Assembly (NCBI RefSeq): GCF_002221505.1
Contig: NZ_CP011036.1
Coordinates: forward strand, 186,001 to 250,000
Direction: 5' to 3'
Source: Pseudoalteromonas nigrifaciens
GTDB taxonomy: Bacteria; Pseudomonadota; Gammaproteobacteria; Enterobacterales; Alteromonadaceae
Length of the DNA stretch: 64,000 bases
The notes below the pieces were generated by a model, which saw nothing but the letters and a program-made list of their open reading frames with translations, was not told where the DNA came from and did no database searches. Each line of letters starts with the position of its first letter. The stretch's first letter is position 1. Positions 27,646 to 50,111 of the stretch are shown here, one piece after another. A program made the translations under genes and the position numbers.

Positions 27646-27784
27646 GAGCGTGTTGATCTTTGGTCGTTGAATTTGCAGCAGCATGTTTGCATGTAAGCCA
27701 GCAGGGTAACGCAGGAGCTGTTACCGAGCCGGCTATGTTATAAATCTCGCGACGGGATTAAATTTCCCTTAGATAGAACAAACT
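27646..27784. repeat. Composite dispersed repeat, left copy
   Basis: GCGTGTTGATCTTTG (27648-27662) recurs exactly at 37979-37993. The other arm, 27742-27783, is the inverted match of 38004-38044 (TTGTTCTATCTAAGGG...GCGAGATTT) with several changes. The rest of the 27360-27808 gap holds only the palindrome at 27460 and no ORF. The element resembles a MITE or REP-like unit but I see no clean terminal repeats. Confidence 0.6.
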
Positions 27785-27808
27785 TTAATCCTGAGAGGTC
27801 AACAAACC

Positions 27809-30800
27809 TCAACTAATAGAAAAAGATGATTTTTCATTTGAACTGCAAAGGTTACTTTTATTTACTTCTTTAGGCACTCGTTTTGAAGCCAGTTTTACGT
27901 AAAAAGCGGGCAATACAAAAAGAGTAAAAAGGGTTCCTATAAGCATTCCTGCTACTAATATAATGCCAATACTATTTCGGGCTTCAGCCCCAGCTCCAGA
28001 TACCATTAATAATGGGAAGTGCCCAAGAACAGTGGCAGCAGTGGTCATTAAAATAGGCCTTAATCTGGTTGATGCAGATTCAATTACGGCTTCTATGCGG
28101 CTTTTACCTTGCTCTTGTAGGTGATTTGCAAATTCGACAATTAAGATACCGTTTTTTGCAATCAGACCAATGAGTGTGATTAAACCGATTTGAGAATAAA
28201 TATTGATAGTCGTTAATTCAAAATACGATAGCATCAACGCGCCAGCCATTGCCAAAGGTACACTCCCAATTAACACAACTAGAGGGTCTCGAAAGCTATT
28301 AAATTGGATACTAAGCAGTAAGTAAACAATGACCAGTGAAATTAGCATAACGCCTAATAAACTATTACCTTGTTGTCTTATTTGTCTAGACTCTCCGGCA
28401 TAATCAACAGTGTATGAAGGGGGGAGTAATTCTTTTGCGGCATTTTCTAATGCTGAAAGTGCCTCTTCTTTTGTGGAATTAGGTAATACGGCTCCAAATA
28501 TGCGAAAGGCATTTTGCTGTCCAAAGCTATTTAATTGTCTAGGAACTGTTGCCCATTTAACTTCAGCTATTGCAGATAATGGCACGCTGGTTCCATTAAT
28601 TGATTTAATGTTTAAGCTTAGTAGTTTTCCTGGATCTGACTTTACATTTCGGTCAATAACAGGGATTACCTGATAAGCTTTTCCTTGAGCATCAAATCGA
28701 TTAACGTAGTTATTTGATAAAAGAACACTCAGTTGCTGATTGACATAAGCGAGATCCATTCCTAAATCGGCAATTTTATCGCGCTTTAATTGTAATTGTA
28801 TTTGGGGTAAATCGATTTTTAAATCAGTGTCTGCGTATAAAAAGTGCCCACTAGCAAATGCTTTACCTATAAGTTGCCCCGTATAGCTTTGCATTATTTC
28901 AAAACTATCGCTGGACTTAACGACCATTTCTACATCGAATTGGCCCGCAGTAGGAAGTGGCGCTGGAAGAATAGGCAACGGGTTGACTCCAGGGGTTTTA
29001 GCCAAGCGTCCATAAACCTCAGGAAGAATTGATTTAGTTGTGTAATCTCGTTCGCTAGCACTTATAAATTCAATACCGCCAAAAGCACTATTGGTAAAAA
29101 TGTTCTGCCACATTTGAGTTGTGCCGGGTATTTCTAATAAGCTATCAACCATGCCACGAATGTTATCTTCATTATAAGTTAGCGATGACTCAGGGGGGGA
29201 TTGTACAAGTACAAATATGCTGCTTTGATCCTCAACTGGCGCAAGCTCTTTTTGTGCACCTTGGTAAAATGGTATTATCATAAGGCTTAACGCAATTGCA
29301 GCGACAATCACTTGATTTCGCCACGACAATAAAAGAGTAAGTAACAACGCATATTTATTTCTTAGCTGATCAAATACCCAGCTTACTTTTTTTGTTAATT
29401 TAGTTTCTTGCCCTTCAGCAGGGATAACATACGCGCTCATTATTGGTGAAAGTGTGAGGGCAACAATGCCTGATATAAGCACTGATATTGCTAAGGTAAA
29501 AGCAAATTCTTTAAATAATACGCCGGTAAGTCCAGACAGAAAGCCAATCGGTAAATACACCATTGTTAGTGTGAGAGTCATTGATACAATTGGTACAAAC
29601 AGCTCTTTGGAGCTTGTGAGCGCAGCGTCAATTTTAGATTTTCCTGCACGAATATGACGTGAAACATTTTCTACAACAACAATCGCATCATCAACCACCA
29701 AGCCAACAGAGAGAACAATAGCGAGCACGGTTAGTAAGTTTAACGAAAAACCGACGACATACATTGCGGCAATAGCACCTAATATTGAAATAGGAATAGT
29801 CACTAAAGGTACCGCTGAGCTTCTAAATGATCCCATCATAAAAAGAACAACAACGCCTACTAGAATAACCGTTTCAATAAGTGTTTTAAAAATCTCATTT
29901 AATGCATCGCGCATATATAAAGTACCATCATAGGCATAACCAATGCTGATACCATCCGGTAAAGTCTTATTAATTTTATCGGTTAATGCGTAAAGTGCAT
30001 CACCAACTTCAATTTCATTTGCACCTGGTTGCGGCCAAACTGAAATATAAACAGTATCATGCTGATTTAAGCGAGCACTTACCGTTGGCTGCTCAGAGCC
30101 AAGTTCAATATCGGCTACATCTCTCAGATATATAACATCATTATCTATACGTTTTACAATTAACTGCTTAAATTCATCGATACTTTTCAATTGTGTATTA
30201 GCGACCAGATCAATTTTTTGTTTATTAGTTTCTATATAACCTAGCGTAGCTATTGTATTATTTGCGGCCAACGCGGAGTAAATATCGTCAGCGCTAAGAT
30301 CAAATGCTTCTAACTTTGCAGAATTTAAATGCACGCGCATCGCAGGCGTTCTACTGCCTTCAATTGCGACTCTTTGAATACCCTCAATATCTGTAATTAT
30401 AGGAGTCACTTGCCTTGATAAAAAGTCGGTTAGTTGTGTAAGTGATTCGCCCTCATGCTCTATATTTAAATAAAATAGCGCATGAGGTCGATCGGTGCGC
30501 TTAACGCTAACAATGGGATCCTCAGTATCATTAGGGAGCATATATTTAACTTGGCTAAGACGAGCAGTAAGCTGTGATAAAGCCCGAGTACTATCTTCGT
30601 TTAAATTTAAGTAAGCTGTTACAGTGCTATTCCCTGCAATTGTGACTGACTCAACATAATCAACACCTGGAACCGTAGCGGAAATACGTTCAATTGGTTC
30701 TGTAATAAAACCTTTAACTGTTTCAGCTGATGCGCCTACGTAGTTAGTTGAAATAACTAAAGATGAACTTTCAATTTTTGGAAACTGTAGCACAGTCACC

Positions 30801-30901
30801 TTAAGCACTGACCAAATCCCAGCAATACAAATAATGGCGGATAAAACGATTGCAAGTGTTGGTTGTGTTATGAATCGATCCATAAAATGATTGTTTTTCA
30901 T
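27809..30901 (-). CDS. RND-family multidrug efflux permease
   Basis: 1030 residues, the HAE1/AcrB length. TM1 starts at about residue 12 (PTLAIVLSAIICIAGIWSV). Two large periplasmic loops and 12 membrane helices are apparent. The proton-relay Asp pair is kept in TM4 (VLSVGLVVDDAIVVVENVSRH). It overlaps its adaptor gene by ATGA, so the two are translationally coupled. Promoter and operator at 32076 match those of the neighbouring indigoidine-type operons, which suggests the pump exports or protects against the locus product. No TolC-type outer membrane gene is present, so a housekeeping TolC must serve. Confidence 0.93.
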   Translation of the reverse strand: MKNNHFMDRFITQPTLAIVLSAIICIAGIWSVLKVTVLQFPKIESSSLVISTNYVGASAETVKGFITEPIERISATVPGVDYVESVTIAGNSTVTAYLNLNEDSTRALSQLTARLSQVKYMLPNDTEDPIVSVKRTDRPHALFYLNIEHEGESLTQLTDFLSRQVTPIITDIEGIQRVAIEGSRTPAMRVHLNSAKLEAFDLSADDIYSALAANNTIATLGYIETNKQKIDLVANTQLKSIDEFKQLIVKRIDNDVIYLRDVADIELGSEQPTVSARLNQHDTVYISVWPQPGANEIEVGDALYALTDKINKTLPDGISIGYAYDGTLYMRDALNEIFKTLIETVILVGVVVLFMMGSFRSSAVPLVTIPISILGAIAAMYVVGFSLNLLTVLAIVLSVGLVVDDAIVVVENVSRHIRAGKSKIDAALTSSKELFVPIVSMTLTLTMVYLPIGFLSGLTGVLFKEFAFTLAISVLISGIVALTLSPIMSAYVIPAEGQETKLTKKVSWVFDQLRNKYALLLTLLLSWRNQVIVAAIALSLMIIPFYQGAQKELAPVEDQSSIFVLVQSPPESSLTYNEDNIRGMVDSLLEIPGTTQMWQNIFTNSAFGGIEFISASERDYTTKSILPEVYGRLAKTPGVNPLPILPAPLPTAGQFDVEMVVKSSDSFEIMQSYTGQLIGKAFASGHFLYADTDLKIDLPQIQLQLKRDKIADLGMDLAYVNQQLSVLLSNNYVNRFDAQGKAYQVIPVIDRNVKSDPGKLLSLNIKSINGTSVPLSAIAEVKWATVPRQLNSFGQQNAFRIFGAVLPNSTKEEALSALENAAKELLPPSYTVDYAGESRQIRQQGNSLLGVMLISLVIVYLLLSIQFNSFRDPLVVLIGSVPLAMAGALMLSYFELTTINIYSQIGLITLIGLIAKNGILIVEFANHLQEQGKSRIEAVIESASTRLRPILMTTAATVLGHFPLLMVSGAGAEARNSIGIILVAGMLIGTLFTLFVLPAFYVKLASKRVPKEVNKSNLCSSNEKSSFSIS

Positions 30902-32013
30902 AATGATACCTTAGGAGATAACGTATCTTCCATAGCTACAGTACGCTCTGAATTAAGCAAGTACGCTCTTAAACCGTCACGCAATTTAAATGCTCCATGA
31001 CTTGCGATTAATGCGCCTGAGGTTAAGCCATTGGTGATCATAACGAGATCCCCAATACGTTCGCCTAATTCAACTTGTGTACGCTTAGCGTATGTTTTTC
31101 CTTCCTCGTCTTTATTTAATAAATATACATAGTTCCCTAATTTGCCTTTAATAACTGCTAAATATGGGATCGCAACAACCTCTTTTTTGTTGCCAATAGG
31201 TACCTTAATTTTAACGAGTTGATTTGAATTTAGTTTAGTATTTCCTAATGTAATTTTTGCACGGTATTTCAGCTGTCTTGAGTGTTTTGACATTTCTGGT
31301 GCAACAGAGGCAACTTGTGCAATTATTTCTGTCTGTGTGTCATCAAGTAGCGTTAATACTACCGGGGTATTAATTGCTAGCTCTGTATAGGTTTGCGGGA
31401 GTGAAAAATCGACCCACATATATTTTTCAATACCAATGAGCTGAGTTAGATTTGTATTAGCAGGTAAAAACTGACCGACTTGCAAGTCATGTATACCAAC
31501 GCGGGCTGTAAATGGTGCTGTAATCACTTTTTTAGCAATTTTAGCTGAGAGTAGGTTTATTTCTGCTTGGTATTGAGCAAGTAAAGCCGTTGATTCATCT
31601 AATTGCTGAGCGCTCAATTTATTTGAATTATAAAGGCTTTTATATCTCTTTACGGTTGTGTTTTGTAGTTCAAAGCGTGATTTAGCTATTTGCAGTTGTG
31701 CTTTTTCCTCCTCGTGTTCTATTTCGATTAACGTATCACCTGCATAAGTAATACCGCCAGATTGCAAATAGAGTTTTGTAACTTTACCTGCTGATTCATT
31801 AATTAACGATAATGTTTTAGGGGCTTTTACGATACCGCTAATATCTATATGTGACTGATGAGCAACTTTTTCTACATACATAGCTTCGACATTAGCCGAT
31901 TGTTCATTGCCTATATTGCTGCGCGCATCAATGATGTTACTTTTAACTGCAAAGCTGCCCGCTATTAAAATTGCTAGTATGCCTGTCGTTGTAATCCATG
32001 GAATGAAATTCAT
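30898..32013 (-). CDS. RND efflux periplasmic adaptor (membrane fusion protein)
   Basis: 371 residues. The N-terminal membrane anchor is residues about 8-22. A split lipoyl domain (LYLQSGGITYAGDTLIEIEHEEEKAQLQ and KVITAPFTARVGIHDLQVGQFL) flanks a short alpha-hairpin (residues about 110-150), and beta-barrel plus membrane-proximal domains follow. It links the inner membrane permease to an outer membrane channel. AAGGAG precedes the ATG. It is first gene of the pump operon, behind the shared 16-bp operator. Confidence 0.92.
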   Translation of the reverse strand: MNFIPWITTTGILAILIAGSFAVKSNIIDARSNIGNEQSANVEAMYVEKVAHQSHIDISGIVKAPKTLSLINESAGKVTKLYLQSGGITYAGDTLIEIEHEEEKAQLQIAKSRFELQNTTVKRYKSLYNSNKLSAQQLDESTALLAQYQAEINLLSAKIAKKVITAPFTARVGIHDLQVGQFLPANTNLTQLIGIEKYMWVDFSLPQTYTELAINTPVVLTLLDDTQTEIIAQVASVAPEMSKHSRQLKYRAKITLGNTKLNSNQLVKIKVPIGNKKEVVAIPYLAVIKGKLGNYVYLLNKDEEGKTYAKRTQVELGERIGDLVMITNGLTSGALIASHGAFKLRDGLRAYLLNSERTVAMEDTLSPKVSL

Positions 32014-32075
32014 AATTAGCTCCTTGTGCGCATCTAGTAGGTAATATGCTTGGGTGAAGTTTGTTTATGTAAAGT

Positions 32076-32114
32076 ATCTTTATATGAAGATATATAATTA
32101 AAAAAATTTGTCAA
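32076..32114 (-). promoter_or_regulatory. Pump-operon promoter with PecS-type operator
   Basis: On the minus strand TTGACA (32109-32114), 16-bp spacer, TATCTT (32087-32092). The near-perfect palindrome ATCTTTATATGAAGAT (32076-32091) covers the -10 region. The same operator type occurs at 37339 and at 41753/41795. A 12-bp inverted repeat (32051-32062 and 32116-32127) also encloses the whole promoter. Confidence 0.72.
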
Positions 32115-32133
32115 TAAACTTCACCCATTATTT

Positions 32134-33078
32134 TTACGCTACTTCTCTTTTATTACTAGATTGCTTTGCATGGGCAACAGCTAAATGCCCTGCAACACGC
32201 GCTGTATTGATCAAAACGGCACTGTTAGCTTTAGCTGAACGCCCTTTAGTTACTTCATCAATTGCTTTCATAATGTACTTAGTGACTTTATTTCCACTGA
32301 TCCCTTGCGCTTGAGCCGAGCTAATTGCCGCGTTGATAGCATCATTAACATCATCACTATCAATGGCATCTTCGAGCTTAGTGGGTGTTGTAATTAATAC
32401 ACTGCGCTTATTATCAAGCAGCCATTGGGTTTCAATTATGTCGGCTAAAATAGATGCATCATCTATCCGTTGTGGTGCTTTATAGCCACTTGAGCGACAG
32501 TAAAATGCAGGGAAATCATCAAATTGATAAGATATAATAGGGACATTGTGGGTCTCTAAGTATTCAAGTGTTAAACCTAGATCGAGTATGTTTTTTGCAC
32601 CAGCACATACAACGGCAACCCGTGAACGTGTAAATTGCATAAGATCTGAAGAAATATCCATCGTATTGTTTGCTCCTCTATGAACGCCACCAATGCCGGC
32701 AGATGCAAAAAAGCATATTCCTGCTAAATCAGCTGCAATAATAGATGAAGCAACGGTGGTTGCACCCAATTGCTTAGTCGCTAATACAACGGGTAAGTCA
32801 CGCGTGCTGACTTTAGGTATATTTGCGGTTGTTGCAAATAACTCAATCTCACTTTCATCCATGCCAATTAGTAATTTACCATTAGCGACTCCAATGGTTG
32901 CAGGGATTGCACCCGATTCACGAACTGCTGCTTCTACTTGTAACGCGGTGTGTTTATTTTCAGGGTAATCTAAGCCATGCGTTATAACATTAGACTCAAG
33001 CGCCACGACCGCAAGCCCTAACTCAAGAGCCCGTTTAATTTCAGGCTTAATAACAAGATTTATCTTTGTATTGTTCAT
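32134..33078 (-). CDS. psuG: Pseudouridine-5'-phosphate glycosidase (PsuG/IndA family)
   Basis: 314 residues, the length of E. coli PsuG. The residues that correspond to its active site are present: Glu28 in [12 protein letters not shown], Asp145 in DISSDL, and Lys162 in [19 protein letters not shown] (same 17-residue spacing as Asp149-Lys166 in E. coli). The family makes or breaks the C1'-C5 bond between ribose 5-phosphate and a uracil-like base. IndA proteins of this family accompany indigoidine synthetases, and MinB of the minimycin pathway is a related C-glycosynthase. No PsuK kinase and no IndB phosphatase are adjacent. It is the third gene of the NRPS operon, AGAGGA Shine-Dalgarno. Confidence 0.9.
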
Positions 33079-33090
33079 TTTATTTTTCCT

Positions 33091-33315
33091 CTAATAACTT
33101 GGTTTTTTAATTAATTTATATTTTTGCTGAATAATATGTTTGTTATAAACACGTTGTCGCCAATTTTTCGGTTGCTCTGCATGCAGTGCGATTGAAATAA
33201 AGTCGTTATTGCATTTAAACTCTTTACTTATCAGTGCCGAAATTTTTTTCACGAGCCTATTCTTGGTAGAACTGGATACGTGAGAATCAAAATAATGTAT
33301 GTTGATATGCGGCAT
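33091..33315 (-). CDS. pptA: PptA-like tautomerase (4-oxalocrotonate tautomerase superfamily)
   Basis: 74 residues. MPHINIHYF keeps the catalytic Pro2, and DFISIALHAEQPKNW plus the C-terminal LIKKPSY match E. coli PptA. Such enzymes use the N-terminal Pro to move protons in keto-enol tautomerisation. It lies 9 bp after the NRPS gene and 12 bp before psuG, with AAGGA at the right distance. A tautomerase in an indigoidine operon is unusual; it could act on the keto/enol 3-amino-glutarimide-type intermediates, which is inference. Confidence 0.82.
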   Translation of the reverse strand: MPHINIHYFDSHVSSSTKNRLVKKISALISKEFKCNNDFISIALHAEQPKNWRQRVYNKHIIQQKYKLIKKPSY

Positions 33316-33324
33316 GTTGCGTCC

Positions 33325-36300
33325 TTACGCTATTAATAATGAACGATGGCTCTCGTAAGAACCTTGAGATTGCACAATGCAATTAAACAGCTCATCAACA
33401 CCTTGATGTTTTAATAATGCGTAATGATCTGCTTGTAAGTGTTGTGTTATCGCTTCTTTTTCGTTGTACTCAGGAATGTTTTCAATAAATGAATAATCAT
33501 CTCCTTGTGCTTTAAATATCACTTTTGGTGCTTTTACTTGGCGTTCAAGCAACTCTGTGAATGTATATTTAAACTCATAAGTGCGCATGACTACTTCTAT
33601 GATTTTACTGACAACATCTCGATTCAAAGTGCGATGATTCATACATACAAAGTCAATAAACTGTTGTTTATTAGTCACTGCCGATAAACATTGTTCTAAT
33701 ACCGGGCCTTGTATTTTTTGAAAGAACACTGAAAATAAAATGGTGACAAATGCAGGAGAAGTAAAACAAGGTGTCTGCTCTTTTTGTGAATACTGAGGTA
33801 GATTAGGTGAGCCAGGTGCAATGAGATAAAGTGCTTCCACGGCCTCGCCGCTGGCTTCAAGTTGATGCGCCACTTCAAATGCAACACGAGCCCCAAAAGA
33901 GTATCCCCATAACGTATAAGGACCCGTCGATTGCTCATTTTTGATTAGCTTGATATCAGCTTCTGCCATTTCTTGTATTGTATCGTAAGGAATTTCATCA
34001 GAATTAAGGCCATGCGCTTGCACCGCAATAAACGTCGCTTCATCGGCCACTTTTTCAGCTAAAGGTTTTAAGCTCATTGGATAGCCACCTAAACCAGGCC
34101 AGCAGAAAATTCGCGATTTTTGTGTAGAGTTATTTAAATTAATCAGCCGACTATGTGAGCTGTTATCGTTTTGCTTAATATAAAGAGCAAGTGCTTCAAT
34201 AGTGGGGGCTTGAAAGATAGCTTGCATTGGGATACTAATGCTCAACTCTTTATTTAAAGTATTCATAAATGTAACGGCTGTTAAAGAGTTTCCACCACTT
34301 TCAAAAAAATTATCTTGGACTGATACTTTGTCCCATTTCATAACATGAAGCCAAATATCAGCTATTTTCTCTTCTAATTTATTTCGAGGCTCAATGTAGG
34401 CTGCCTTATTTTCAATATTATTAAGTTTCTCTGAATTTTTTAGAGCTAGATAATCGACTTTCCCATTTGCCGTTTGTGGAAACTCAGCAAAAGTTATAAT
34501 TTTATTAGGTACCATGTAACTAGGTAGCGAATTTTGTAAATCATGATTCAACATTTCAAGGGGTCCACGCATATGTATAGCGTCTTCTTTCATACCTTCA
34601 CTGCGTTTTTGCTCATCTGAAATTTTTCCACTAATACAAAAATAAAATGGTTTCATTGTACAGTTCGCATCAGATAAAATTTCTTCAATACGATTGGCTG
34701 AAGGTAAATTATTACCAGATTTTGAGCTATAACCAGAAGACATTAAACCTATGTTTAAGTCGTTCATTTGTAACTGCTGTAACTTACGACCTAAATCAAT
34801 ATAGTGTCGCCAAGCCGTTGTAGAATGATTAAGTAAAGAAATACCAAAAGAAGCTCTATCATAGACTTGCTGATTAATGGCAATCACTTTTTTCTTTTCA
34901 ATTAGCTGATCAGAAAGGGGTGTCAGCTGATTATCTTGAACTGTGTATTGTCCTGAATTTAAACCATCTACATTTTGAATTTGCACTAAGGTCTCAACAT
35001 TTGAAAGCGGGTCAGTTTCGCTATGTTGGCTAATATCAAAACTCCCTAAGTAGGCGTCATCTTCGTGAACAGCTAAGTAATCTTGGTATTCATTGTCAAA
35101 ACTAGCAGCGCCAATTGAAAGGCCAAACTGAGGTAAAATATGATCAAATAAGCCAAGCATATGGCCTGTTTCCATTTCTAAAACTTCTAATATATTATTT
35201 TGATATACAGGTTCTATAGCTGATTGTTTACCTAAAAAATGGCAAGTTAATTTAACCGTGCTTGCAGGCGCTAATGAGCGTACAAGATGCAGGGTATGTA
35301 GTTCAGGGTGATAATAATAAATACCCGATTTTAAATTAAATAAATTATGTATTTCTAAAAATAACTGCGTAGCATACAGGGCGCCTGGAGATGCATAGCC
35401 ATACTTGGGCAGTAAGCGTTGCTTGCTTTTAAACTGGCCAAAATATCTCATGATTTGACCAAATTCATCATATTCTAATGCGCTGACAGGGCGTGTAGGG
35501 ATCTCTGATTTTTGTTTTTTGAGTAAGTTAAGTATTTCTTGCTCACACACATTTCCACCATCAAAGTAACGATAAGTTTTACGAGCAAAAACAGTTTCAG
35601 TTTGCTCTTTTGATGCGTTTTTATTTGGTAAATTAAATACGGGTAAGTTTAACAGCGCTTGTGGTTGTCTAAATCCAGCATTAGAGAGTTGTGCTTTAAC
35701 TTGTAATTTACTTTTTTTAGATTGATGGTGTTCACTCTGCTTGCCTTGATCCATTAAAGCGGCTTCACGATGATTTAATTCAATGCATGCAATAAGATTT
35801 TGAAAACCGGTACGCTGGTCATTTTTTACAATCATTGCGGCATTTTTTATCCAATCATGCTTTTCAATGGCAAGTCTAATTTCATCAAGCTCTACACGGT
35901 AACCACGTAATTTAATTTGATTATCGGCGCGACCTAAAAAGTGTGTGTTACCTTCTTTATCACGTTTTACAATATCACCACTGCGATAGAGCGTATTATG
36001 CATAGGCTCGCTATTGTGAGGATTAGATATAAATCTTTCGAGCGTTGTATCGTTACGGTTTAAATAACCTCTAGCAACCTGCACACCACTAATATAAAGC
36101 TCACCAGATTCACCCTCATCAACTAAGTTTAACTGTTCATCAAGTATATAGTAGTGAGTATTGGCTACAGGCTTACCAATGGTAATTGCATCAAACGCTT
36201 GCTCTAAAGTATGAGGCGTTACTTTATGGCTGGATGAATTTATTGTGCATTCTGTTGGCCCATATAAATTGATTAGATCTTTTTCAGGCAGTGTTTCAAA

Positions 36301-37203
36301 AAATTGTAAGGCGAGCTGCTTAGTAAGCGTTTCACCCCCACTGAACACGTGAGACAATGAGTTGCACAATTGAATACAAGGCGAATCAAGCAAAGCTTGT
36401 AAAAGGGTAGGAACACATTGCAAAACGGTCACTTGTTTTTCAATGATTAAATCAATAAGTGCAAGCGGATCGCGATACATTCCAGCTTCACTCGTAACAA
36501 CACAAATACCGATTGCATTAGCTAAAATCTCCCATTGGGCTGCATCAAAGCTAAAAGGCGTTTTTTGTACAATACGAGTTGATTGGCTAAAGCTATGCTC
36601 TTCTTTTAACCACAGAAGCTGATTAACAATACTGCTATGCTCAATGATGACGCCTTTTGGATCACCTGTGCTTCCAGAGGTGTAAATCATATAAGCAAGG
36701 CTATCTTGTGATAGTGGCGCATAATATGACGTATTATCATCAACATCATCTATCGAAATCACAGTAATGTCGCTGCTAACCAATGCAGTAATTTGCTCTT
36801 TTAAATGTGCTTGAGTTAAAACTAAACGCGCTTTAGAGTCTTTTAGCATATAACTAATACGTTTTTCAGGGTATTCAGGAGACAGTGGAAGGTATCCGCA
36901 TCCTGCATAAATAGCTCCCCACACACCAAAAATTAAGTCAGGCGATGGATCGACAAACAAACCAACATATTCACCTTGCTTAGCACCATGCTGATGGAGT
37001 AAAGAGGCAATGTTAGCTGATTTTTTATCCAGCATTTTATAGCTCCAATCTCCTTGGTTACTAATTACTGCAGTTTCATCAGGTGTTTCAATAATTTGCT
37101 TTTGAATTAAATCAAACAATGTTCGAGTATCACTTTCTCCCAAAAAAGATATCTGATCTTGTTCAAGATTTTCGGTTCGATTTAGTTGATTATGTAGTTT
37201 CAT
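33325..37203 (-). CDS. indC: Indigoidine synthetase-type single-module NRPS (A-Ox-T-TE)
   Basis: 1292 residues, close to BpsA/IndC. Adenylation core: YTSGSTGDPKG (174-184), NLYGPTE (312-318), YRSGD (406-410), GRADNQIKLRGYRVE (424-438). A nitroreductase/SagB-like flavin oxidase domain (about 520-860) is inserted between A8 and A10 (NGKVD, 913-917), which is the hallmark of indigoidine synthetases. Carrier domain Ser973 is in FFESGGNSL; thioesterase Ser1102 in GYSFG with His1260. Pocket residues Asp220, Ala221, Trp224 and Gln262 fit glutamine activation. BpsA-like enzymes cyclise and oxidise two Gln into the blue pigment indigoidine; MinA uses the same chemistry for minimycin. All catalytic motifs are intact. 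First gene of an operon with pptA and psuG. Confidence 0.94.
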   Translation of the reverse strand: MKLHNQLNRTENLEQDQISFLGESDTRTLFDLIQKQIIETPDETAVISNQGDWSYKMLDKKSANIASLLHQHGAKQGEYVGLFVDPSPDLIFGVWGAIYAGCGYLPLSPEYPEKRISYMLKDSKARLVLTQAHLKEQITALVSSDITVISIDDVDDNTSYYAPLSQDSLAYMIYTSGSTGDPKGVIIEHSSIVNQLLWLKEEHSFSQSTRIVQKTPFSFDAAQWEILANAIGICVVTSEAGMYRDPLALIDLIIEKQVTVLQCVPTLLQALLDSPCIQLCNSLSHVFSGGETLTKQLALQFFETLPEKDLINLYGPTECTINSSSHKVTPHTLEQAFDAITIGKPVANTHYYILDEQLNLVDEGESGELYISGVQVARGYLNRNDTTLERFISNPHNSEPMHNTLYRSGDIVKRDKEGNTHFLGRADNQIKLRGYRVELDEIRLAIEKHDWIKNAAMIVKNDQRTGFQNLIACIELNHREAALMDQGKQSEHHQSKKSKLQVKAQLSNAGFRQPQALLNLPVFNLPNKNASKEQTETVFARKTYRYFDGGNVCEQEILNLLKKQKSEIPTRPVSALEYDEFGQIMRYFGQFKSKQRLLPKYGYASPGALYATQLFLEIHNLFNLKSGIYYYHPELHTLHLVRSLAPASTVKLTCHFLGKQSAIEPVYQNNILEVLEMETGHMLGLFDHILPQFGLSIGAASFDNEYQDYLAVHEDDAYLGSFDISQHSETDPLSNVETLVQIQNVDGLNSGQYTVQDNQLTPLSDQLIEKKKVIAINQQVYDRASFGISLLNHSTTAWRHYIDLGRKLQQLQMNDLNIGLMSSGYSSKSGNNLPSANRIEEILSDANCTMKPFYFCISGKISDEQKRSEGMKEDAIHMRGPLEMLNHDLQNSLPSYMVPNKIITFAEFPQTANGKVDYLALKNSEKLNNIENKAAYIEPRNKLEEKIADIWLHVMKWDKVSVQDNFFESGGNSLTAVTFMNTLNKELSISIPMQAIFQAPTIEALALYIKQNDNSSHSRLINLNNSTQKSRIFCWPGLGGYPMSLKPLAEKVADEATFIAVQAHGLNSDEIPYDTIQEMAEADIKLIKNEQSTGPYTLWGYSFGARVAFEVAHQLEASGEAVEALYLIAPGSPNLPQYSQKEQTPCFTSPAFVTILFSVFFQKIQGPVLEQCLSAVTNKQQFIDFVCMNHRTLNRDVVSKIIEVVMRTYEFKYTFTELLERQVKAPKVIFKAQGDDYSFIENIPEYNEKEAITQHLQADHYALLKHQGVDELFNCIVQSQGSYESHRSLLIA

Positions 37204-37308
37204 TTCTATGCCTATTCCTTTATTTAAAATTTTATAGATGACTAATTTTTGAATTGTCTTGTTAAAAATGAGTACTACACATAACTCTCATGTAACAAAG
37301 TTAGGTAA

Positions 37309-37354
37309 AAGATAATGCATACAATCTCAATGTCAAGCATCTTTACGTAAAGAT
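37309..37354. promoter_or_regulatory. indC promoter and pecS-indC shared operator
   Basis: On the minus strand TTGACA (37331-37336), 16 bp, TATCTT (37309-37314). The perfect 16-bp palindrome ATCTTTACGTAAAGAT (37339-37354) lies 2 bp upstream of the -35 box and midway between the divergent indC and pecS genes. It is well placed to control both and to allow PecS autoregulation. Confidence 0.78.
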
Positions 37355-37430
37355 ACTTGTTGTGATGAGTCTTGCTGTAGAGGTTGTTGTGAGTTATATT
37401 GGTTTATCAATTTAAATTAGAGTAGTAGAT

Positions 37431-37937
37431 ATGATGAAAAATGATTTTGTTGACGTCGTTATAGCCCAGTGGAATAAAGAAAGACCTGATTTAGACCCTT
37501 CACCTATGGGAGTTATGGGCCGACTCGTTCGTACCGATGTAATGTTTAGCAAAGAATTACAAACTGTATTTGGCCGTTTTGGCCTCAATGGTGGCGAATT
37601 TGATGTATTAGCGACAATTAGGCGTTCAGGAAAACCGTTTACATTAAGTCCAAGTCAACTATTGCAGACATTAATGCTAACCTCAGGCTCAATGACAAAC
37701 CGTATCGATAAACTAGAAGCTAAAGACTTGGTTGCACGCAGCTTCGATCCTAACGACCGTCGAGGCGTTATGGTGTCTTTAACAGAGAAAGGTTTTCAAT
37801 TGATTGATCAGGTTGTTGAGGAGCATATTGCAAAAGGGCAGTCTTTATTGTCACCTTTAGATAAGTCGGAGCAGCAGCAACTCGCAGTATTACTTAAAAA
37901 ATTACTTTTAGGCCTTTCTAGCTCTACTTATAAATAA
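37431..37937 (+). CDS. pecS: PecS-type MarR-family transcriptional regulator
   Basis: 168 residues, a winged-helix MarR protein. The N-terminal extension AQWNKERPDLDPSPM and the recognition region SPSQLLQTLMLTSGSMTNRIDKLEA, then DPNDRRGVMVSLTEKG, match Dickeya PecS closely. PecS represses indigoidine genes and is relieved by urate-like ligands. Here it is divergent from the indigoidine synthetase operon, and a 16-bp palindrome shared by three promoters sits between them. I infer it is the regulator of the whole locus. A palindromic AAGGCC hairpin follows the stop codon. Confidence 0.9.
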   Translation: MMKNDFVDVVIAQWNKERPDLDPSPMGVMGRLVRTDVMFSKELQTVFGRFGLNGGEFDVLATIRRSGKPFTLSPSQLLQTLMLTSGSMTNRIDKLEAKDLVARSFDPNDRRGVMVSLTEKGFQLIDQVVEEHIAKGQSLLSPLDKSEQQQLAVLLKKLLLGLSSSTYK

Positions 37938-37963
37938 GGCCTGCTGGCCTTTCAGCAGCACAA

Positions 37964-38044
37964 TTTGTTCTATCTAGGGCGTGTTGATCTTTGTGGATTG
38001 AAATTTGTTCTATCTAAGGGCGATTTAATCGTGGCGCGAGATTT
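37964..38044 (+). repeat. Composite dispersed repeat, right copy
   Basis: TTTGTTCTATCTA(A)GGG occurs at 37964-37980 and again at 38004-38020. Between them is GCGTGTTGATCTTTG, shared with 27648-27662. The part to 38044 is inverted relative to 27742-27783 and resembles 4452-4485. It lies between pecS and the end of the convergent OYE operon. The remaining 38045-38219 is non-coding. Confidence 0.65.
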
Positions 38045-38219
38045 GTAACCTAGTGGGCTAAGTAAAAATCGAGCAACATAGAGTCAATCGCCCCTAGGAA
38101 GAGCGCTAAGGGCTGCGCATGTTTGGCATTTACACTGTGTTATAGCCTATTTATGGGGAACAACCACACTACATAGGCTCTGCCTTGCCTAACTACCAAA
38201 CATACAGCTGCAAAATTAA

Positions 38220-39353
38220 TCACGAAAGCTCAACACGCTCTAATATAGATTCACTTTGTTTCTCAGATAGCGATGCACTTTTATCTACCATTGTAGGATA
38301 ATCGGTATAACCGGTTTCGTCGCCACCATAAAACGAATCGGGATCTACATTATTAAAAGAAGCATTTAACTTAGTACGTTCTACCAAATCAGGGTTTGCT
38401 AAAAAGAGTGCCCCTAATGCCACACCATCGCATAGATTTTCATTTAACACATCTGATGCAATAGCAGGGGTTACAGGGCCATCCTGCCAAGATTTGTGAG
38501 GGTTCAATATAAGCTTACCTAACCATTGGTTACGGATCTGCTGAGTGTGCTCACGGTTAGCCGCTTCCATAATATGCAAATACGCCAGATCAGTTGGCAA
38601 CTGACTAATAAGAGTTTGGTAGAGTACTTCACTGTCTTGTTCAATAATGTCATTGTAAGTATTGTCGGGAGAAATACGAATACCGACTCTTTTAGCACCA
38701 ATAGCTTGTGTAACAGCCGCCACTACTTTTAGCGTAAATCTTAAACGGTTTTTGACGCTACCACCAAATAGGTCGGCTCTATTATTTGTATTGCTTGCCA
38801 TAAATTGGTGAAGTAAAAAACCATTTCCCGCGTGTATTTCTACCCCATCAAAACCTGCCTGAATCGCTAATTCAGCTGATTTTGCGAAGTCTTCAATGGT
38901 TGCTGTAATTTCATCTAACGTCATTTCTTTTGGTGTAGGGTAGCTCTTTGGCCCTGTTGGTGTAAAAGCGTCTCCGGTAGCTTTAATTGCTGAAGGCGCT
39001 ATTGATTGATGAGCACTGGGGTATAATTCAGGATGCCCAATACGACCAGAATGCATCAATTGAGCTACAATTTTGCCTCCCCTTTTATGTACTGCTTCAG
39101 TAATGGGCTGCCAGCTTTTCACATGTTGTAAATTATGTAGTCCTGGAGAATTCATAAAACCTTGACCAACTTGGTTAGGTTGAATACCTTCAGAAATAAT
39201 TAACCCAGCTGTTGCTCTTTGAGCATAATAGGTTGCCATAAGAGGCGTTGCTAATCCTTCAGCTGTTGCCCTGTTTCTACTCATTGGTGCCATTACAAAG
39301 CGATTACTTGCGTTGATTTTCCCAAAACGAGCTTCTGTAAATAAGTTGTCCAT
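38220..39353 (-). CDS. Old yellow enzyme family ene-reductase (NemA-like)
   Basis: 377 residues, FMN-binding TIM barrel. N-terminal NRFVMAPMSRNRA, FDGVEIHAGNGFLLHQFM (substrate-binding His with Asn), RLRFTLKVV and GVALGALFLANPDL (phosphate site) are family hallmarks. It reduces activated C=C bonds with NAD(P)H. It is the last gene of the TrpF-like/upp/EamA operon, 11 bp after the permease, so its substrate may be an intermediate or shunt product of the locus, for example a quinone-like or unsaturated imide. That is inference; a general electrophile-detoxification role is also possible. Confidence 0.9.
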   Translation of the reverse strand: MDNLFTEARFGKINASNRFVMAPMSRNRATAEGLATPLMATYYAQRATAGLIISEGIQPNQVGQGFMNSPGLHNLQHVKSWQPITEAVHKRGGKIVAQLMHSGRIGHPELYPSAHQSIAPSAIKATGDAFTPTGPKSYPTPKEMTLDEITATIEDFAKSAELAIQAGFDGVEIHAGNGFLLHQFMASNTNNRADLFGGSVKNRLRFTLKVVAAVTQAIGAKRVGIRISPDNTYNDIIEQDSEVLYQTLISQLPTDLAYLHIMEAANREHTQQIRNQWLGKLILNPHKSWQDGPVTPAIASDVLNENLCDGVALGALFLANPDLVERTKLNASFNNVDPDSFYGGDETGYTDYPTMVDKSASLSEKQSESILERVELS

Positions 39354-39364
39354 GTTTACTTCCT

Positions 39365-40279
39365 TTAACTATTTTTTTTGTCTAATGATGGTTCCAGATT
39401 AAAATTGGAACTTGATTTTTTAAACAGCTGTACTTGAGATATAACAATGGCTAATACAATAATGACAGCGCCTAATGTTTGACTCATCGTTAGCCTTTGC
39501 GAAAGAATAAAATAACCCAATAATGTTGCTGAGATTGGGCTTGCAAACGATATAAAAGACACCGTAACAACAGGCAGTTTTTCAATAGCTTTAAACCAAA
39601 CTATATAAGCGAACAAAGCGCCAATGATACTTAAGTAGGAATAACCAATTATATTGTCCACTGTTAGGTTACTAGGTAAGCCTTCTTGTACTAATCCAAT
39701 CGGGAGTAAAAATAATCCACCTACAACGAGTTGCCAGCCTGTAAAAGTATATAAATTAACGTCAGCAGGCTTGCCCCATTTTTTTGTTAATACTATTCCC
39801 GTGGCCATTGAAGCGGCACCAATTAAACCTGCAATAACACCTTGAACAGGTAAATTCATATTTGGTTCTAATACCAACATCGCAACTCCAACAGCTGCAA
39901 TTGCACAAGCAATAAATTGCCTTAAATTAAGGGTATCTTTAAAGAGTAGCGCACCAAGTATCATGACTATGATAGGCTGGCACGACATAACAAGTGCAGC
40001 TACACCACCGGGTAATAGATAGGCTGCTACAAATAAACAGTAAAAAAAGCCACCAATATTAAGTATGCCAAGTACGATAGAACGCACCCACCAGATGCCT
40101 TTAGGTAGCTTTCGACCAATCAGTACTAATAAAATACCAGCAGGTAAAGCACGAAGTGTTGACGCCATTAAAGGCATATCTGGCGGTAACAGCTCGGTCG
40201 TTACTATGTATGTACTGCCCCAAATTGTTGGGGCAATCATAGCAACTAACATCCAAAGTATTAGTTGTTTATTTGTCAT
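39365..40279 (-). CDS. EamA/DMT-family permease (PecM-like)
   Basis: 304 residues with ten predicted helices in two EamA repeats: PTIWGSTYIVTTELLPPDMPLMASTLRALPAG begins the first, and IGALFAYIVWFKAIEKLPVVTVSFISFASPISA lies in the second. This architecture and partnership with PecS and indigoidine genes fit PecM, the inner membrane protein encoded next to PecS in Dickeya and thought to export the pigment or a related compound. It overlaps the UPRT gene by ATGA. A transporter is also one of the self-protection parts of the minimycin cluster. Confidence 0.88.
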   Translation of the reverse strand: MTNKQLILWMLVAMIAPTIWGSTYIVTTELLPPDMPLMASTLRALPAGILLVLIGRKLPKGIWWVRSIVLGILNIGGFFYCLFVAAYLLPGGVAALVMSCQPIIVMILGALLFKDTLNLRQFIACAIAAVGVAMLVLEPNMNLPVQGVIAGLIGAASMATGIVLTKKWGKPADVNLYTFTGWQLVVGGLFLLPIGLVQEGLPSNLTVDNIIGYSYLSIIGALFAYIVWFKAIEKLPVVTVSFISFASPISATLLGYFILSQRLTMSQTLGAVIIVLAIVISQVQLFKKSSSNFNLEPSLDKKNS

Positions 40280-40980
40280 ACGGCCCCCACATCGGTCGTA
40301 CCGAAGTAGCGATCTCCGAAGTCGCCAATTCCAGGTATCATAAATGCGTTTGCATTTAGATACTCTTCAATTGAAGACGTGACTATTTGAATTTTCTTAA
40401 ATTGCTGAGTAACTTTTTGAATCCCCTCAGGGGAGCACAAAAGGTTAACAAAAATGATATTTTCTTCTAAAACACCAGCATCTATAAGTATCTGAATAGC
40501 ACAAATTGCAGAGCCGCCTGTCGCCAACATAGGTTCGAATATCAGCACGCGGCATTTAGCGATATGATCCGGAAGTTTTGAATAATAAAGAGTTGGCAAT
40601 TTTGTGACGACATCGCGTTGTATTAAAATTTTTCCGATGGGGATTTTTAAGTCAATATGACGCAGCTCATTTTCCATACTTTCACCAGCACGAACCACAG
40701 AAACGGCACATATTGGATCTGCAAACTGCTTGCCTTTGTATGTTTCTCCTACGGGAGTAGTTACATCGAGATCTTTAAATGGTACTAATTCTAAGCTTTT
40801 TTCAATCAGCAGACGAAACACTTGATCAGCATAAAAAATGAATTGGCTTTTACTAGCTACCTTGTCACGCATTTTTGCATGCAGGTATTTTAGTCTATTT
40901 GTTTGCGGTAACTCGATCACACTACTTGAGAGTATTTGTGAGTCTTTTTTATATATTTGAATAACTTGATTTGCATTCAT
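40276..40980 (-). CDS. upp: Uracil phosphoribosyltransferase, eukaryotic-like (FUR1/UCK-UPRT) subtype
   Basis: The frame extends to 41046, but ATG 40978-40980 has GGGAG 8 nt upstream and gives 234 residues. The PRPP loop is FEPMLATGGSAICAI and the uracil site IPGIGDFGDRYFGT. The N-terminal half (LPQTNRLKYLHAKMRDK, FYADQVFRLLIEKSL, VETP-like VTTPVGETYKG, and GKILIQRD) is of the FUR1-like subtype rather than the 208-residue E. coli Upp. It converts uracil and PRPP to UMP. Placement in a PecS operon suggests a specialised role, as MinD is in minimycin self-resistance, rather than general salvage. Confidence 0.9.
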   Translation of the reverse strand: MNANQVIQIYKKDSQILSSSVIELPQTNRLKYLHAKMRDKVASKSQFIFYADQVFRLLIEKSLELVPFKDLDVTTPVGETYKGKQFADPICAVSVVRAGESMENELRHIDLKIPIGKILIQRDVVTKLPTLYYSKLPDHIAKCRVLIFEPMLATGGSAICAIQILIDAGVLEENIIFVNLLCSPEGIQKVTQQFKKIQIVTSSIEEYLNANAFMIPGIGDFGDRYFGTTDVGAV

Positions 40981-41000
40981 AACGCTCTCCCTATTTGAGT

Positions 41001-41029
41001 CTGCCAGATTAGGGGTGTTAATCTGGCAG
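41001..41029 (-). other. Intercistronic hairpin between the TrpF-like gene and upp
   Basis: CTGCCAGATTA, 7-nt loop, TAATCTGGCAG: a perfect 11-bp stem with no T run, ending about 10 nt before the upp Shine-Dalgarno. It probably stabilises or processes the mRNA, or sets relative expression, rather than ending transcription. Confidence 0.7.
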
Positions 41030-41038
41030 TGAATTATA

Positions 41039-41716
41039 TTAAGCATTGATCTCCGAAAATGCTTTTTCAGCTTCGCGAATGAATTTCTTCACTTTAGCGG
41101 CATCTTTTCTGCCGTCGCTACCTTCTAATCCCGTATGTGAATCAACTGCGGCTGGTTTAACCTTATAGATTGCATCAGCTACATTTTCAGGCGTTAAACC
41201 GCCAGCCATCATTAGAGGTTTTGGAGAACGTCTAACAAGTTCAGCGCTTACGTCCCAGTTATGCGTTAAACCAGTAGCGCCTTTAGCACCCGTTTTGGGG
41301 TTAAACGTATCAGTGATAAACATGTCAACAAAGTCAGCCATGGTATCAACAATTTCTAACAGCTCTTCAGCATTGTCTTCTTTCACAACAAGGCTTTTTA
41401 ATAAGAAAAGATCAGGGCGCAGCTCTCTAAGCTTTTTCATTTCTGCCACACTAATATCACCGTGTAGTTGAACTGCTTTTACACCTAGTTCACTGCAATA
41501 ACCGCTCACTTCTTCAGCATCTACCATATAGCTAATCAACACACCGGCTTGAGGCTCACTTAAGCCTTTAATAATGCTCATTGCATCTGTTTCAGAAATA
41601 TCATCTTTTCCAGAAGGTAAGCGCAAAGGAAAGCCAAGCCACTTAATGCCAGACTCCAGCATTAGATTTGCTTCTTCTCGGTCGATAATGCCAGCTACTT
41701 GAATAATGTTTTTCAT
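41039..41716 (-). CDS. TrpF-like (phosphoribosylanthranilate isomerase-fold) protein lacking the catalytic Cys
   Basis: 225 residues from ATG 41714-41716, which has GGAG 7 nt upstream. It has the TrpF barrel pattern: VKAVQLHGD, FITDTFNPKTGAKGATGLTHNWD (with the general-acid Asp) and the phosphate-binding MAGGLTPENVADAI and AAVDSHTGLEGSDGRKD. The start reads IIQVAGI where genuine TrpF reads KICGI: the general-base Cys is replaced by Ala. No trp genes are near. So it probably is not an anthranilate-pathway isomerase; it may bind or isomerise another ribose-phosphate adduct. First gene of a PecS-operator operon with upp, EamA and OYE. Confidence 0.85.
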   Translation of the reverse strand: MKNIIQVAGIIDREEANLMLESGIKWLGFPLRLPSGKDDISETDAMSIIKGLSEPQAGVLISYMVDAEEVSGYCSELGVKAVQLHGDISVAEMKKLRELRPDLFLLKSLVVKEDNAEELLEIVDTMADFVDMFITDTFNPKTGAKGATGLTHNWDVSAELVRRSPKPLMMAGGLTPENVADAIYKVKPAAVDSHTGLEGSDGRKDAAKVKKFIREAEKAFSEINA

Positions 41717-41752
41717 AATGTTCTCCAATTTAAAGTTAAAGGGTTGTAAAGA

Positions 41753-41810
41753 ATCTCGACGTAAAGATATGTAAGAATTAACTTTGTGTCAAGTATCTTC
41801 ATGTAAAGAT
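41753..41810 (-). promoter_or_regulatory. Promoter of the TrpF-like/upp operon with two PecS-type operators
   Basis: On the minus strand TTGACA (41787-41792), 17 bp, TATCTT (41764-41769). Operator ATCTTCATGTAAAGAT (41795-41810) ends 2 bp upstream of the -35 box, exactly as at indC. A second, ATCTCGACGTAAAGAT (41753-41768), covers the -10 region. This is the densest site pair of the locus. Confidence 0.76.
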
Positions 41811-42181
41811 ATTTAATTAATATACGTTTAACTGTTTCATAGAGTTGTTGAAGACTGATTTTTTATATCGTTATTATTTAAAAAGCTAACATAAGCAAAG
41901 CTTTAGGGAAGTTTTGGAAGTGGTGCAGGGCGATTGGAAGCTTACTAAAAAATAGTTTTCGGCCTTAAAAACTTAACGTATTGAGCGTAAGTCTTAAATA
42001 AAAACAATATTTAGGCATTTAAAAAATTATATGGCGTGAGTATGGTTATCAAAACGTTAAGTTAACGAGATCGTAAACACGGACAAGAACAGTTGGTTTT
42101 TTCCGTGCCCCACAAAATTTTAGTCAACTATTTTTAGCTGGTACAATGGCATTTGTATAACTATGTGCAGCAAGGGAGTAT
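41811..42181. other. Non-coding region right of the PecS-controlled locus
   Basis: About 370 bp with no credible ORF. A CACGGA...TTCCGTG hairpin with a long T-rich loop lies at about 42078-42107. AAGGGAG just before 42182 is the Shine-Dalgarno of the next gene. I see no mobile element here. Confidence 0.4.
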
Positions 42182-42475: not shown

Positions 42476-42714
42476 CCACTCGTTCCAGGCAAACTTAAAA
42501 AACTGTATTTAGATTTTCACGGGCAAGCGCCTAAAATACGTTGAGAATAGAAGCAAGTCGTTCTTATTTATTTTCTATTTAAAAAATCAAAATCTGTTCC
42601 GAAAAGTTGTTAAGTAGGAGCTATTGTCCTGAACTTCATGAGAGGTTTTTATTAAACTCCGTTATACTTCTTGCGATTGAATATGCCAAACGAAGTAAAT
42701 AGGCGCTAACTGCA

Positions 42715-44592: not shown

Positions 44593-44619
44593 GAGAACAT
44601 ATTGTTCTCGAATTTTTTT
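44593..44619 (+). terminator. Terminator-like hairpin, plus strand
   Basis: GAGAACA, TAT, TGTTCTC followed by GAATTTTTTT. It has the right shape on the plus strand, but no intact plus-strand gene lies upstream; it may be a leftover of the IS-damaged region. Confidence 0.55.
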
Positions 44620-45391
44620 AACCAGAACTGGCTATCAAGGTTAAAAAATGGTCGCTAAGTTTACTTGTGATGCAGGTAAAGCGGCGACCTTTGTGAAGTC
44701 CTGGGGCGAGATTGACAGTCAATTCTAGTAGTATTTTTCCAGATTCAAGTTTAAAATCAATCACTTGGGCGCATTCATAGCCAAAGTATTTTCCAACGTA
44801 TTTGTGGATAGCTTTGAATAAGGTTTCTTTGGCTGAGAATACCCAGGTTAGAAATTCAGTTTCATCTAGCTTGATTGATTTGCTCAAGTGCAGCTCATCA
44901 GGTAACAACACTTCTGATTGGATCTGCTTAGCGACATTCTGGCTTATAAGTTCTTCGACATCAATGCCAAGAAAAGGGTAGTCTTCTCTTTTGCTGACTA
45001 CTGCTACGGCGAGAGCCTTGCTGTGAGAAATTGAACCGTTGATTCCCGCCGGCCAGCAGGGTTCACCATGTCTTCCGATACCCGGTGGCTCCCAGGCTAA
45101 GCCCGCAGCTTGGAAAGCCTGTTGAACTGAACAGCGGCCAGCTAAATACTCAGCCTTTCGTTTTGTGACTGACTGGTTCAGTTTCTCTGGGAATTTGATA
45201 TGCAGTTCAGAAAATAAGCTCTGACTGAACTGTGCTTGGTCGAATTCGCAGTAACTGATAGCTAAGTTTTGCCACCTGTTAAGGGAGATCATACCCGACT
45301 CTCTAATAAAAGAGGATGAGGGAAGTCTTCCTAATGGCATTTCACCATCCTTAGGCAAAAACAAAGTTGGCTTAGAGATAGATGATTTCAT
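44618..45391 (-). CDS. 4'-phosphopantetheinyl transferase (Sfp/EntD type)
   Basis: 257 residues. I chose ATG 45389-45391, which has AAGGAG 7 nt upstream, over the ATG 18 nt further out. Motifs are KRKAEYLAGRCSVQQAF, GINGSISHSKALAVAVV, FLGIDVEE (Mg ligands) and FSAKETLFKAIHKYVGKYFGY. These define the EntD/Sfp-type enzymes that attach the phosphopantetheine arm to NRPS and PKS carrier domains. It is the only PPTase in view and lies 7.4 kb from indC, so it could activate that synthetase. It follows a ruined type II thioesterase on the same strand, so it is also the survivor of an older NRPS-linked operon. All catalytic residues are present. Confidence 0.9.
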   Translation of the reverse strand: MKSSISKPTLFLPKDGEMPLGRLPSSSFIRESGMISLNRWQNLAISYCEFDQAQFSQSLFSELHIKFPEKLNQSVTKRKAEYLAGRCSVQQAFQAAGLAWEPPGIGRHGEPCWPAGINGSISHSKALAVAVVSKREDYPFLGIDVEELISQNVAKQIQSEVLLPDELHLSKSIKLDETEFLTWVFSAKETLFKAIHKYVGKYFGYECAQVIDFKLESGKILLELTVNLAPGLHKGRRFTCITSKLSDHFLTLIASSG

Positions 45392-45462
45392 CAAGAAGCT
45401 CCTTAGCAATAGCGGTTATGCATTTCAATACTTATTCTCCATCTTGTTCTATGAAAAAGTGA

Positions 45463-47717: not shown

Positions 47718-47727
47718 TGGGGTTAAC

Positions 47728-48321: not shown

Positions 48322-48355
48322 AGTGAGTTATCTCTTTATGCTGTGCGTGCCGGTA

Positions 48356-50080: not shown

Positions 50081-50111
50081 GCTTTATATCCTATAACAGG
50101 CTAAAAAAGTA

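Follow-up and report, generated by a model that had tools for sequence, protein, structure and literature searches.

The stretch analysed here (the window) comprises 64,000 nucleotides of a Pseudoalteromonas nigrifaciens genome, positions 186001-250000 of contig 1 in an assembly of 4.27 Mb and three contigs, and it carries a ten-gene block (27809-41728) that includes genes for an IndC-type nonribosomal peptide synthetase (NRPS) and the C-glycosynthase-like protein IndA (Table 1). An initial annotation had placed in this block an indigoidine synthetase, a PsuG/IndA enzyme, a tautomerase, a PecS regulator, a PecM-like permease, a resistance-nodulation-division (RND) pump, a uracil phosphoribosyltransferase (UPRT), a TrpF-like protein and an old yellow enzyme (OYE), and each of these parts is present as an open reading frame. 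Along the minus strand the genes encode the TrpF-like protein, UPRT, an EamA permease, OYE, NRPS, tautomerase, IndA, RND adaptor and RND permease, with the gene for the PecS-like regulator lying on the plus strand between those for OYE and NRPS. There is an overlap of 8 bases between the frames for the TrpF-like protein and UPRT, and one of 4 bases between those for UPRT and EamA. Nine genes of the block and a neighbouring transporter gene were covered by profile scans, and the tautomerase was scanned separately; its best NCBIfam match, PptA, reached 64.9 bits (cut-off 83), and PF01361 reached 21 bits (cut-off 22). The best PDB matches of the PecS-like protein carry only the names MarR family regulator or regulatory protein. 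A PADLOC scan of 10 proteins for defence systems, with the tautomerase left out, gave zero matches.

Table 1. Genes and operator sites of the IndC-IndA cluster and its surroundings (positions in the window)
Feature	Position	Strand	Matches and remarks
RND efflux permease	27809..30901	-	PF00873 E 3e-234; operator before RND pair
RND periplasmic adaptor	30898..32013	-	TIGR01730, above cut-off
Operator before RND pair	32076..32091	.	1 mismatch (window); exact to longer pattern (genome)
IndA, PsuG/YeiN-like C-glycosynthase (putative), 314 aa	32134..33078	-	PF04227 E 8e-109; PDB 4gij E 3e-78
PptA-like tautomerase, 74 aa	33091..33315	-	both profile matches below cut-off
IndC-type single-module NRPS, 1292 aa: adenylation (A) domain with inserted oxidase, carrier (T), thioesterase (TE)	33325..37203	-
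Operator between PecS and NRPS	37339..37354	.	0 mismatches; palindrome of 13+13 bases
PecS-like MarR regulator	37431..37937	+	PF12802; PDB 8ylf E 5e-42
OYE/N-ethylmaleimide reductase-like	38220..39353	-	PF00724, NF007899
EamA permease ("PecM-like" in the initial annotation)	39365..40279	-	PF00892
FUR1-type UPRT	40276..41046	-	PF14681; second copy in genome (other: G000:C2:481699)
TrpF-like barrel protein, likely start 41716	41039..41728	-	PF00697; catalytic Cys absent
Second operator-like palindrome before TrpF-like	41753..41768	.	1 mismatch
Operator before TrpF-like	41795..41810	.	0 mismatches on +
Sfp/EntD-type 4'-phosphopantetheinyl transferase	44618..45409	-	PF17837 + PF01648

The block is organized into three transcription units, and a palindromic operator of the form AAGTATCTTTAYRTAAAGATACTT, which the initial annotation had overlooked, is joined to the promoter-like site of each. 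The three top minus-strand promoter-like sites (TTGACA, 16-17 bases, TATCTT) precede the genes for the TrpF-like protein, the NRPS and the RND adaptor; such sites are not in excess over the whole region (37 versus 52 in shuffles). With up to two mismatches allowed, the operator core has eight matches in the window, which fall in four places that are all in the cluster (0.76 expected; equalled in none of 100 shuffles). In the genome, all five matches with at most one mismatch sit at units of the cluster, while a second mismatch adds one match outside it and a third adds many chance ones; a reversed control pattern gave 6 matches, against 24 in all for the operator pattern. The arrangement extends to relatives of the host. 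All matches with up to two mismatches lie inside the cluster in two Rheinheimera genomes (five in G083, four in G137), as do three of four in genome G022. The cluster of P. luteoviolacea (G064) is split, with TrpF-UPRT-EamA-OYE at a contig end and PecS-NRPS-tautomerase-IndA-RND on another contig, and its six matches at this threshold are all at the two halves. An operator site was looked for at one Oxalobacteraceae locus (L019), and none was seen. As expected of PecS, the regulator belongs to the MarR family, is encoded divergently from its target and has a palindromic operator at the target promoters, and we infer that it controls all three units through the shared operator. The phosphopantetheinyl transferase, also overlooked initially, is a possible activator of the NRPS; its membership in the cluster is a guess, since its gene lacks the operator.

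The gene set recurs widely among bacteria. A profile scan of genome contigs with an alignment of the TrpF-like protein gave 65 loci, of which 54 were kept for counting; five solo relatives (L064, L066-L069; 48-54% identity) were set aside, as were six loci at a greater distance (L070-L075). At all 54, which come from Proteobacteria and Actinomycetota, the UPRT gene follows the TrpF-like gene on the same strand. Of the 45 loci for which 9 kb or more of downstream sequence was available (the long loci), 44 encode IndA and 43 an IndC NRPS, a count that excludes L039, whose match is a 22% one to another NRPS. Partners that may be present or absent at the long loci are EamA (36), tautomerase (35), OYE (31), the PecS-like regulator (29) and a phosphoribosyl pyrophosphate (PRPP) synthetase (17, all in actinomycetes). 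The proteobacterial hosts include Pseudoalteromonas, Rheinheimera, Shewanella, Oxalobacteraceae, Chromohalobacter, Agrobacterium vitis and roseobacters, and the actinomycete hosts include Streptomyces, Kitasatospora, Micromonospora, Microbispora, Rhodococcus and Corynebacterium. Two Kitasatospora loci (L038, L039) appeared to be clusters without IndC, a possibility that was rejected as both genomes carry IndC on another contig.

Since these loci had been gathered through the TrpF-like protein, the search was repeated from the IndC side. In 246 genomes of the host family, IndC was found in nine and the TrpF-like protein in eight, all of them among those nine. In 246 Streptomyces genomes, IndC was found in 31 (34 genes) and the TrpF-like protein in eight, each time 1.5-5.5 kb from IndC. 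The probability of such overlap by chance is about 3e-14 for the family and 3e-8 for Streptomyces, uncorrected for kinship. Pairwise distances among the four core proteins are correlated across the 45 long loci (r 0.71-0.92; 0 of 1000 permutations as high). Because the set recurs in two phyla and the three units have a common operator, the grouping is not due to chance. The locus is best read as a single biosynthetic unit. It represents a widespread type of cluster with the TrpF-like protein, UPRT, IndC and IndA at its core; the tautomerase, EamA, OYE and PecS-like regulator are mostly present as well, and many actinomycetes add a PRPP synthetase. The reading in the initial annotation of a PecS-controlled cluster with IndC and IndA is supported: the regulator gene is divergent, the units share an operator and the genes are conserved as a set, so that neither sequence-level objection to it, neighbours regulated apart or neighbours not conserved together, applies. 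The observation is stronger than was claimed, and its interpretation is partly supported.

Within the host genus the cluster has moved recently between species. Its DNA (31120-43501) matches P. fuliginea KMM 216 (L011) as well as Pseudoalteromonas sp. MMG007 (L012) at 96-99% identity, with values against KMM 216 of 98.6% for 31120-38023 and 96.6% for 38072-43501 and with IndA 100% identical, whereas the neighbours on the cys side (46966-51216) are only 84-86% identical to both. The latter values suggest that the window comes from a species other than P. fuliginea. Beyond the TrpF-like end, both relatives have a 5' fragment of a serine/threonine transporter gene (7703-8093 in L011, 7705-8096 in L012). 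In the window an intact serine/threonine transporter gene lies at the opposite end of the cluster (26100-27359), and no second copy was found. An alpha/beta hydrolase is encoded by one 280-aa frame in both relatives and by two frames in the window (42715-43535). The window also has an inverted pair of 72-bp sequences, 82% alike and resembling a miniature inverted-repeat transposable element, one copy after the RND permease gene (27733-27804) and the other between the PecS and OYE genes (37982-38053).

Judged by their residues, IndA, UPRT and the NRPS look functional. Five catalytic motif residues of IndA are invariant among the 58 sequences compared, and alignment with 4gij shows the catalytic lysine to be kept; the role of this lysine is indicated as well by 4gim, which differs from 4gij at this position. 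With its PF04227 match and catalytic residues, IndA fits a PsuG/YeiN C-glycosidase, and formation of a carbon-carbon bond to ribose 5-phosphate is its putative activity. The NRPS has the single-module layout of IndC/BpsA, with AMP-binding (34-381), PP-binding (945-1009) and thioesterase (from 1031) domains and an insert that weakly resembles SagB/BmdC-type oxidases (NCBIfam E 6.5e-12, below cut-off; PDB E 7e-4). Its A-domain letters DAWQFGLIN, which we take to be the code for glutamine, occur at 46 of 49 loci bearing the TrpF-like protein and at 29 of 34 others. The PRPP loop and uracil motif of UPRT are present, the uracil-site motif PGIGDFGDRYFGT varying at only two positions, and the nearest PDB chains are 1upf and 1bd3, presumably Toxoplasma UPRT.

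The TrpF-like protein presents a different picture. TrpF employs a catalytic cysteine and an aspartate that acts as the general acid. The TrpF fold and the general-acid aspartate are retained in the TrpF-like protein (the latter in 31 of 31 aligned members), together with His83, Asp178 and the GG phosphate motif. The catalytic cysteine (Cys7) is replaced by alanine in all 31, two histidines have appeared in all 31 (Phe to His152, Ser to His194), and Arg36 is replaced by an acidic residue in 27. Both the TrpF-like protein and UPRT are additional to a second member of their families in 12 of 12 TrpF-like-bearing genomes tested. The TrpF-like protein is the most conserved of the core proteins (mean identity 68% versus 66, 59 and 54%), a rank favoured by the fact that the loci were found through it. 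The five solo relatives occur in unrelated bacteria and also have alanine for the cysteine, which suggests a wider family. They have no adjoining UPRT or IndC, their neighbour genes yield no functional hint, and in four of their five genomes no IndC was found at E 1e-100, a weak result as these are draft metagenome-assembled genomes. If the TrpF-like proteins catalyse a different reaction, as the substitutions suggest, their family would be a natural example of an isomerase barrel rebuilt.

IndC genes without this module were examined in Streptomyces, where 27 of the 34 loci were inspected and two had the TrpF-like protein. Among the other 25, IndA occurs at one and a UPRT match at two. The locus with IndA (L147) has the order of a minimycin-type (min-type) cluster, namely a major facilitator superfamily (MFS) exporter, NRPS, IndA, a haloacid dehalogenase (HAD), DUF4243 and UPRT, and the TrpF-like protein is absent. 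At the other locus with a UPRT match (L138), the NRPS of which is a close sister in the NRPS tree of that of the TrpF-like-bearing L023, EamA and a stump of UPRT remain; a search there gave no TrpF-like protein, IndA, OYE or PRPP synthetase, and the module was likely lost recently. A single origin of the TrpF-like-bearing class is unsupported by the IndC tree, which forces at least eight changes; this tree was made by a quick method, has several long rows flagged and contains the 22% match of L039. One relative has a second IndC gene (L084, G082:C1:4071000-4090900) accompanied by genes for EamA and a tautomerase and for a HAD resembling the one at L147; IndA, UPRT and the TrpF-like protein were not found in its 20 kb.

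What the cluster makes is best approached through published genetics, taken here from the available portions of the papers cited. P. fuliginea BSW20308 is dark blue, and deletion of its 945-bp indA abolishes the colour, which a plasmid copy restores (PMC12628799); the indA frame in the window is likewise 945 bp. The blue pigment anticipated by the initial annotation thus has genetic backing from a cluster of this kind. IndC-type synthetases alone suffice for indigoidine (PMC10989907, PMC12766979), so a requirement for indA is unexpected if the pigment is plain indigoidine. As the blue pigment needs a C-glycosynthase, a C-ribosylated relative of indigoidine is suggested. From this one deletion and the gene content, we infer that the coloured product is made through C-glycosylation.

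Our tentative preference, held at close to an even chance, is that this is a distinct IndC-IndA-UPRT-TrpF-like cluster that builds a blue C-ribosylated azaquinone. IndC would convert L-glutamine to 3-aminoglutarimide and the corresponding dehydro compound, the tautomerase would yield a nucleophilic aminodihydroxypyridine, and IndA would join this compound through carbon to ribose 5-phosphate. Oxidation would then produce the blue azaquinone related to indigoidine, with OYE perhaps setting the redox state of the ring and EamA and the RND pump serving in export. The second UPRT would use PRPP either to hold uridine monophosphate (UMP) high against a nucleotide analogue, self-protection by analogy with MinD, or to phosphoribosylate an intermediate, which places its role between protection and synthesis. 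The TrpF-like protein may bind a phosphoribosyl aromatic compound. Since the general acid and phosphate site are kept, the enolising cysteine is lost and two histidines are gained, its reaction would be other than that of TrpF, such as ring opening, anomerisation or hydrolysis. A more specific version, in which the pigment is an indochrome-like blue C-nucleoside and the TrpF-like protein belongs to a new class of enzymes that open, anomerise or transfer the C- or N-linked ribose of a pyridine nucleotide supplied by IndA or the cluster UPRT, is rather unlikely. Were it true, many clusters filed as indigoidine clusters would be mislabelled.

Several points weigh against the preferred reading. 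No chemistry was found in the literature for the P. fuliginea pigment, which its authors call indigoidine in the available part of their report (PMC12628799), and the cluster was compared with P. fuliginea KMM 216 rather than with the pigment strain BSW20308. Peaks from high-performance liquid chromatography and mass spectrometry of E. ulvae U95, a strain with one IndC match only (E 1e-100), located in a cluster of the present type, were assigned to indigoidine (PMC7989816). A fosmid carrying the E. ulvae IndC gene made E. coli antibacterial and not blue (PMC3564156), which pulls in the opposite direction. The authors of that 2012 paper stated that further genes required for indigoidine are absent from the fosmid, so its lack of colour may have other causes. 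For the same fosmid (19F10), the 2012 table gives antibacterial activity as positive and antinematode activity as negative, and a 2019 genome paper describes it as antibacterial and antinematodal and credits indigoidine. In addition, profile scans found among the cluster genes of the window no phosphatase of the sort that a C-nucleoside route would need, the window has no PRPP synthetase, and the long loci lack OYE in 14 cases, EamA in nine and PecS in 16.

The main alternative is that the product is ordinary indigoidine and that IndA, UPRT and the TrpF-like protein just remove, recycle or tolerate side products. It is favoured by the sufficiency of IndC-type enzymes, the E. ulvae peaks, the view of the P. 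fuliginea authors and the frequency of IndC without IndA (24 of the 25 Streptomyces loci lacking the TrpF-like protein). It requires an additional assumption for the white indA mutant, for example that the IndA product induces the PecS-like repressor or that unused monomer is toxic or lost, and it offers no reason for the co-occurrence of IndA, UPRT and the TrpF-like protein; we regard it as possible rather than probable. It is also possible, if doubtful, that UPRT, PRPP synthetase and the TrpF-like protein are a protective set that raises UMP and clears a toxic C-nucleotide arising from IndA, irrespective of what the cluster finally produces. The precedent of MinD (PMC8724604), the second copies in the 12 genomes and the unchanged uracil-site motif agree with protection. 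The min-type L147 has UPRT without the TrpF-like protein, so that the latter would have to meet a product-specific need, and its top rank in conservation also speaks against mere protection, with the reservation made above. Production of an oxazine C-nucleoside by the minimycin pathway, the other branch of the initial annotation, shares an NRPS, C-glycosynthase, tautomerase and UPRT with this cluster (PMC8724604) and is very improbable: the DUF4243 of MinC (PF14027) has no match in the host genome or at any of the 54 loci, a HAD like that of L147 occurs at one of the 54 and an MFS exporter like that of L147 at none, and L147 itself lacks the TrpF-like protein. The pathway as described is thereby refuted, and only another enzyme for the step of MinC would rescue it. 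A switch between pigment and nucleoside, which the initial annotation also offered, is hypothetical. PF14027 has matches in five of 23 genomes searched, four of them away from the cluster loci shown or partial.

IndC genes are usually taken as indigoidine genes, and the combination of IndC, a C-glycosynthase, a second UPRT and a TrpF relative sets apart a class that spans phyla and for which dependence of colour on the C-glycosynthase is already published (PMC12628799, available part). If the pigment carries ribose, a family of C-nucleosides would exist in marine bacteria and actinomycetes, and CRISPR genetics is at hand in P. fuliginea.

Comparison with known systems places the cluster among, yet apart from, those described. 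Dickeya-type indABC operons include IndB, a HAD phosphatase, whereas there is none among the ten genes of the window cluster. The minimycin cluster (minA-D and minT; reviewed in PMC8724604) likewise has a C-glycosynthase and UPRT beside the NRPS, with tautomerase activity; the window cluster lacks MinC (HAD + DUF4243), has EamA and RND proteins in place of the MFS exporter MinT, and adds the TrpF-like protein and OYE. The roseobacter igi indigoidine cluster (PMC5014874) has in common an IndC-type NRPS and a 4-oxalocrotonate tautomerase, igiF. In place of IndA, UPRT, the TrpF-like protein, OYE and PecS it has igiB, igiC, igiE and a TetR regulator, and no igi-type modification genes are among the annotated genes of the locus. 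A similar set is orf17-21 on Corynebacterium aurimucosum plasmid pET44827, where an IndA, NRPS, phosphoribosyltransferase, phosphoribosylanthranilate isomerase (PRAI) homologue and PecS-like regulator were noted in 2010 and the two phosphoribosyl proteins were read as helpers in NRPS activation (PMC2830990). The TrpF-like protein there is 56.7% identical to that of the window; the pigment is black, its product was unidentified in that paper, and the available portion mentions no RND or OYE. In a literature search for the TrpF-like and UPRT pair with indigoidine, this was the only one of the papers examined to place a homologue of PRAI next to an NRPS of this kind; PMC10126203 also mentions both indigoidine and UPRT, and a paper on Csr (PMC11882849) contains no pigment terms. 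The initial annotation's view that the pump, TrpF-like protein, OYE and tautomerase are absent from the described clusters was half right: it fails for the PRAI homologue of pET44827 and for tautomerases, which were already described in indigoidine clusters (PMC5014874, PMC12766979). The indC cluster on plasmid pSA3239 of Streptomyces lavendulae CCM 3239 (L040/L131) also has the TrpF-like protein, UPRT, EamA, tautomerase, IndA, OYE and NRPS; it differs in an added PRPP synthetase (L131 10330-11271), another gene order and no RND proteins. Going by the strain number, it is probably the MIBiG indigoidine entry BGC0000727 named in the available part of PMC12766979.

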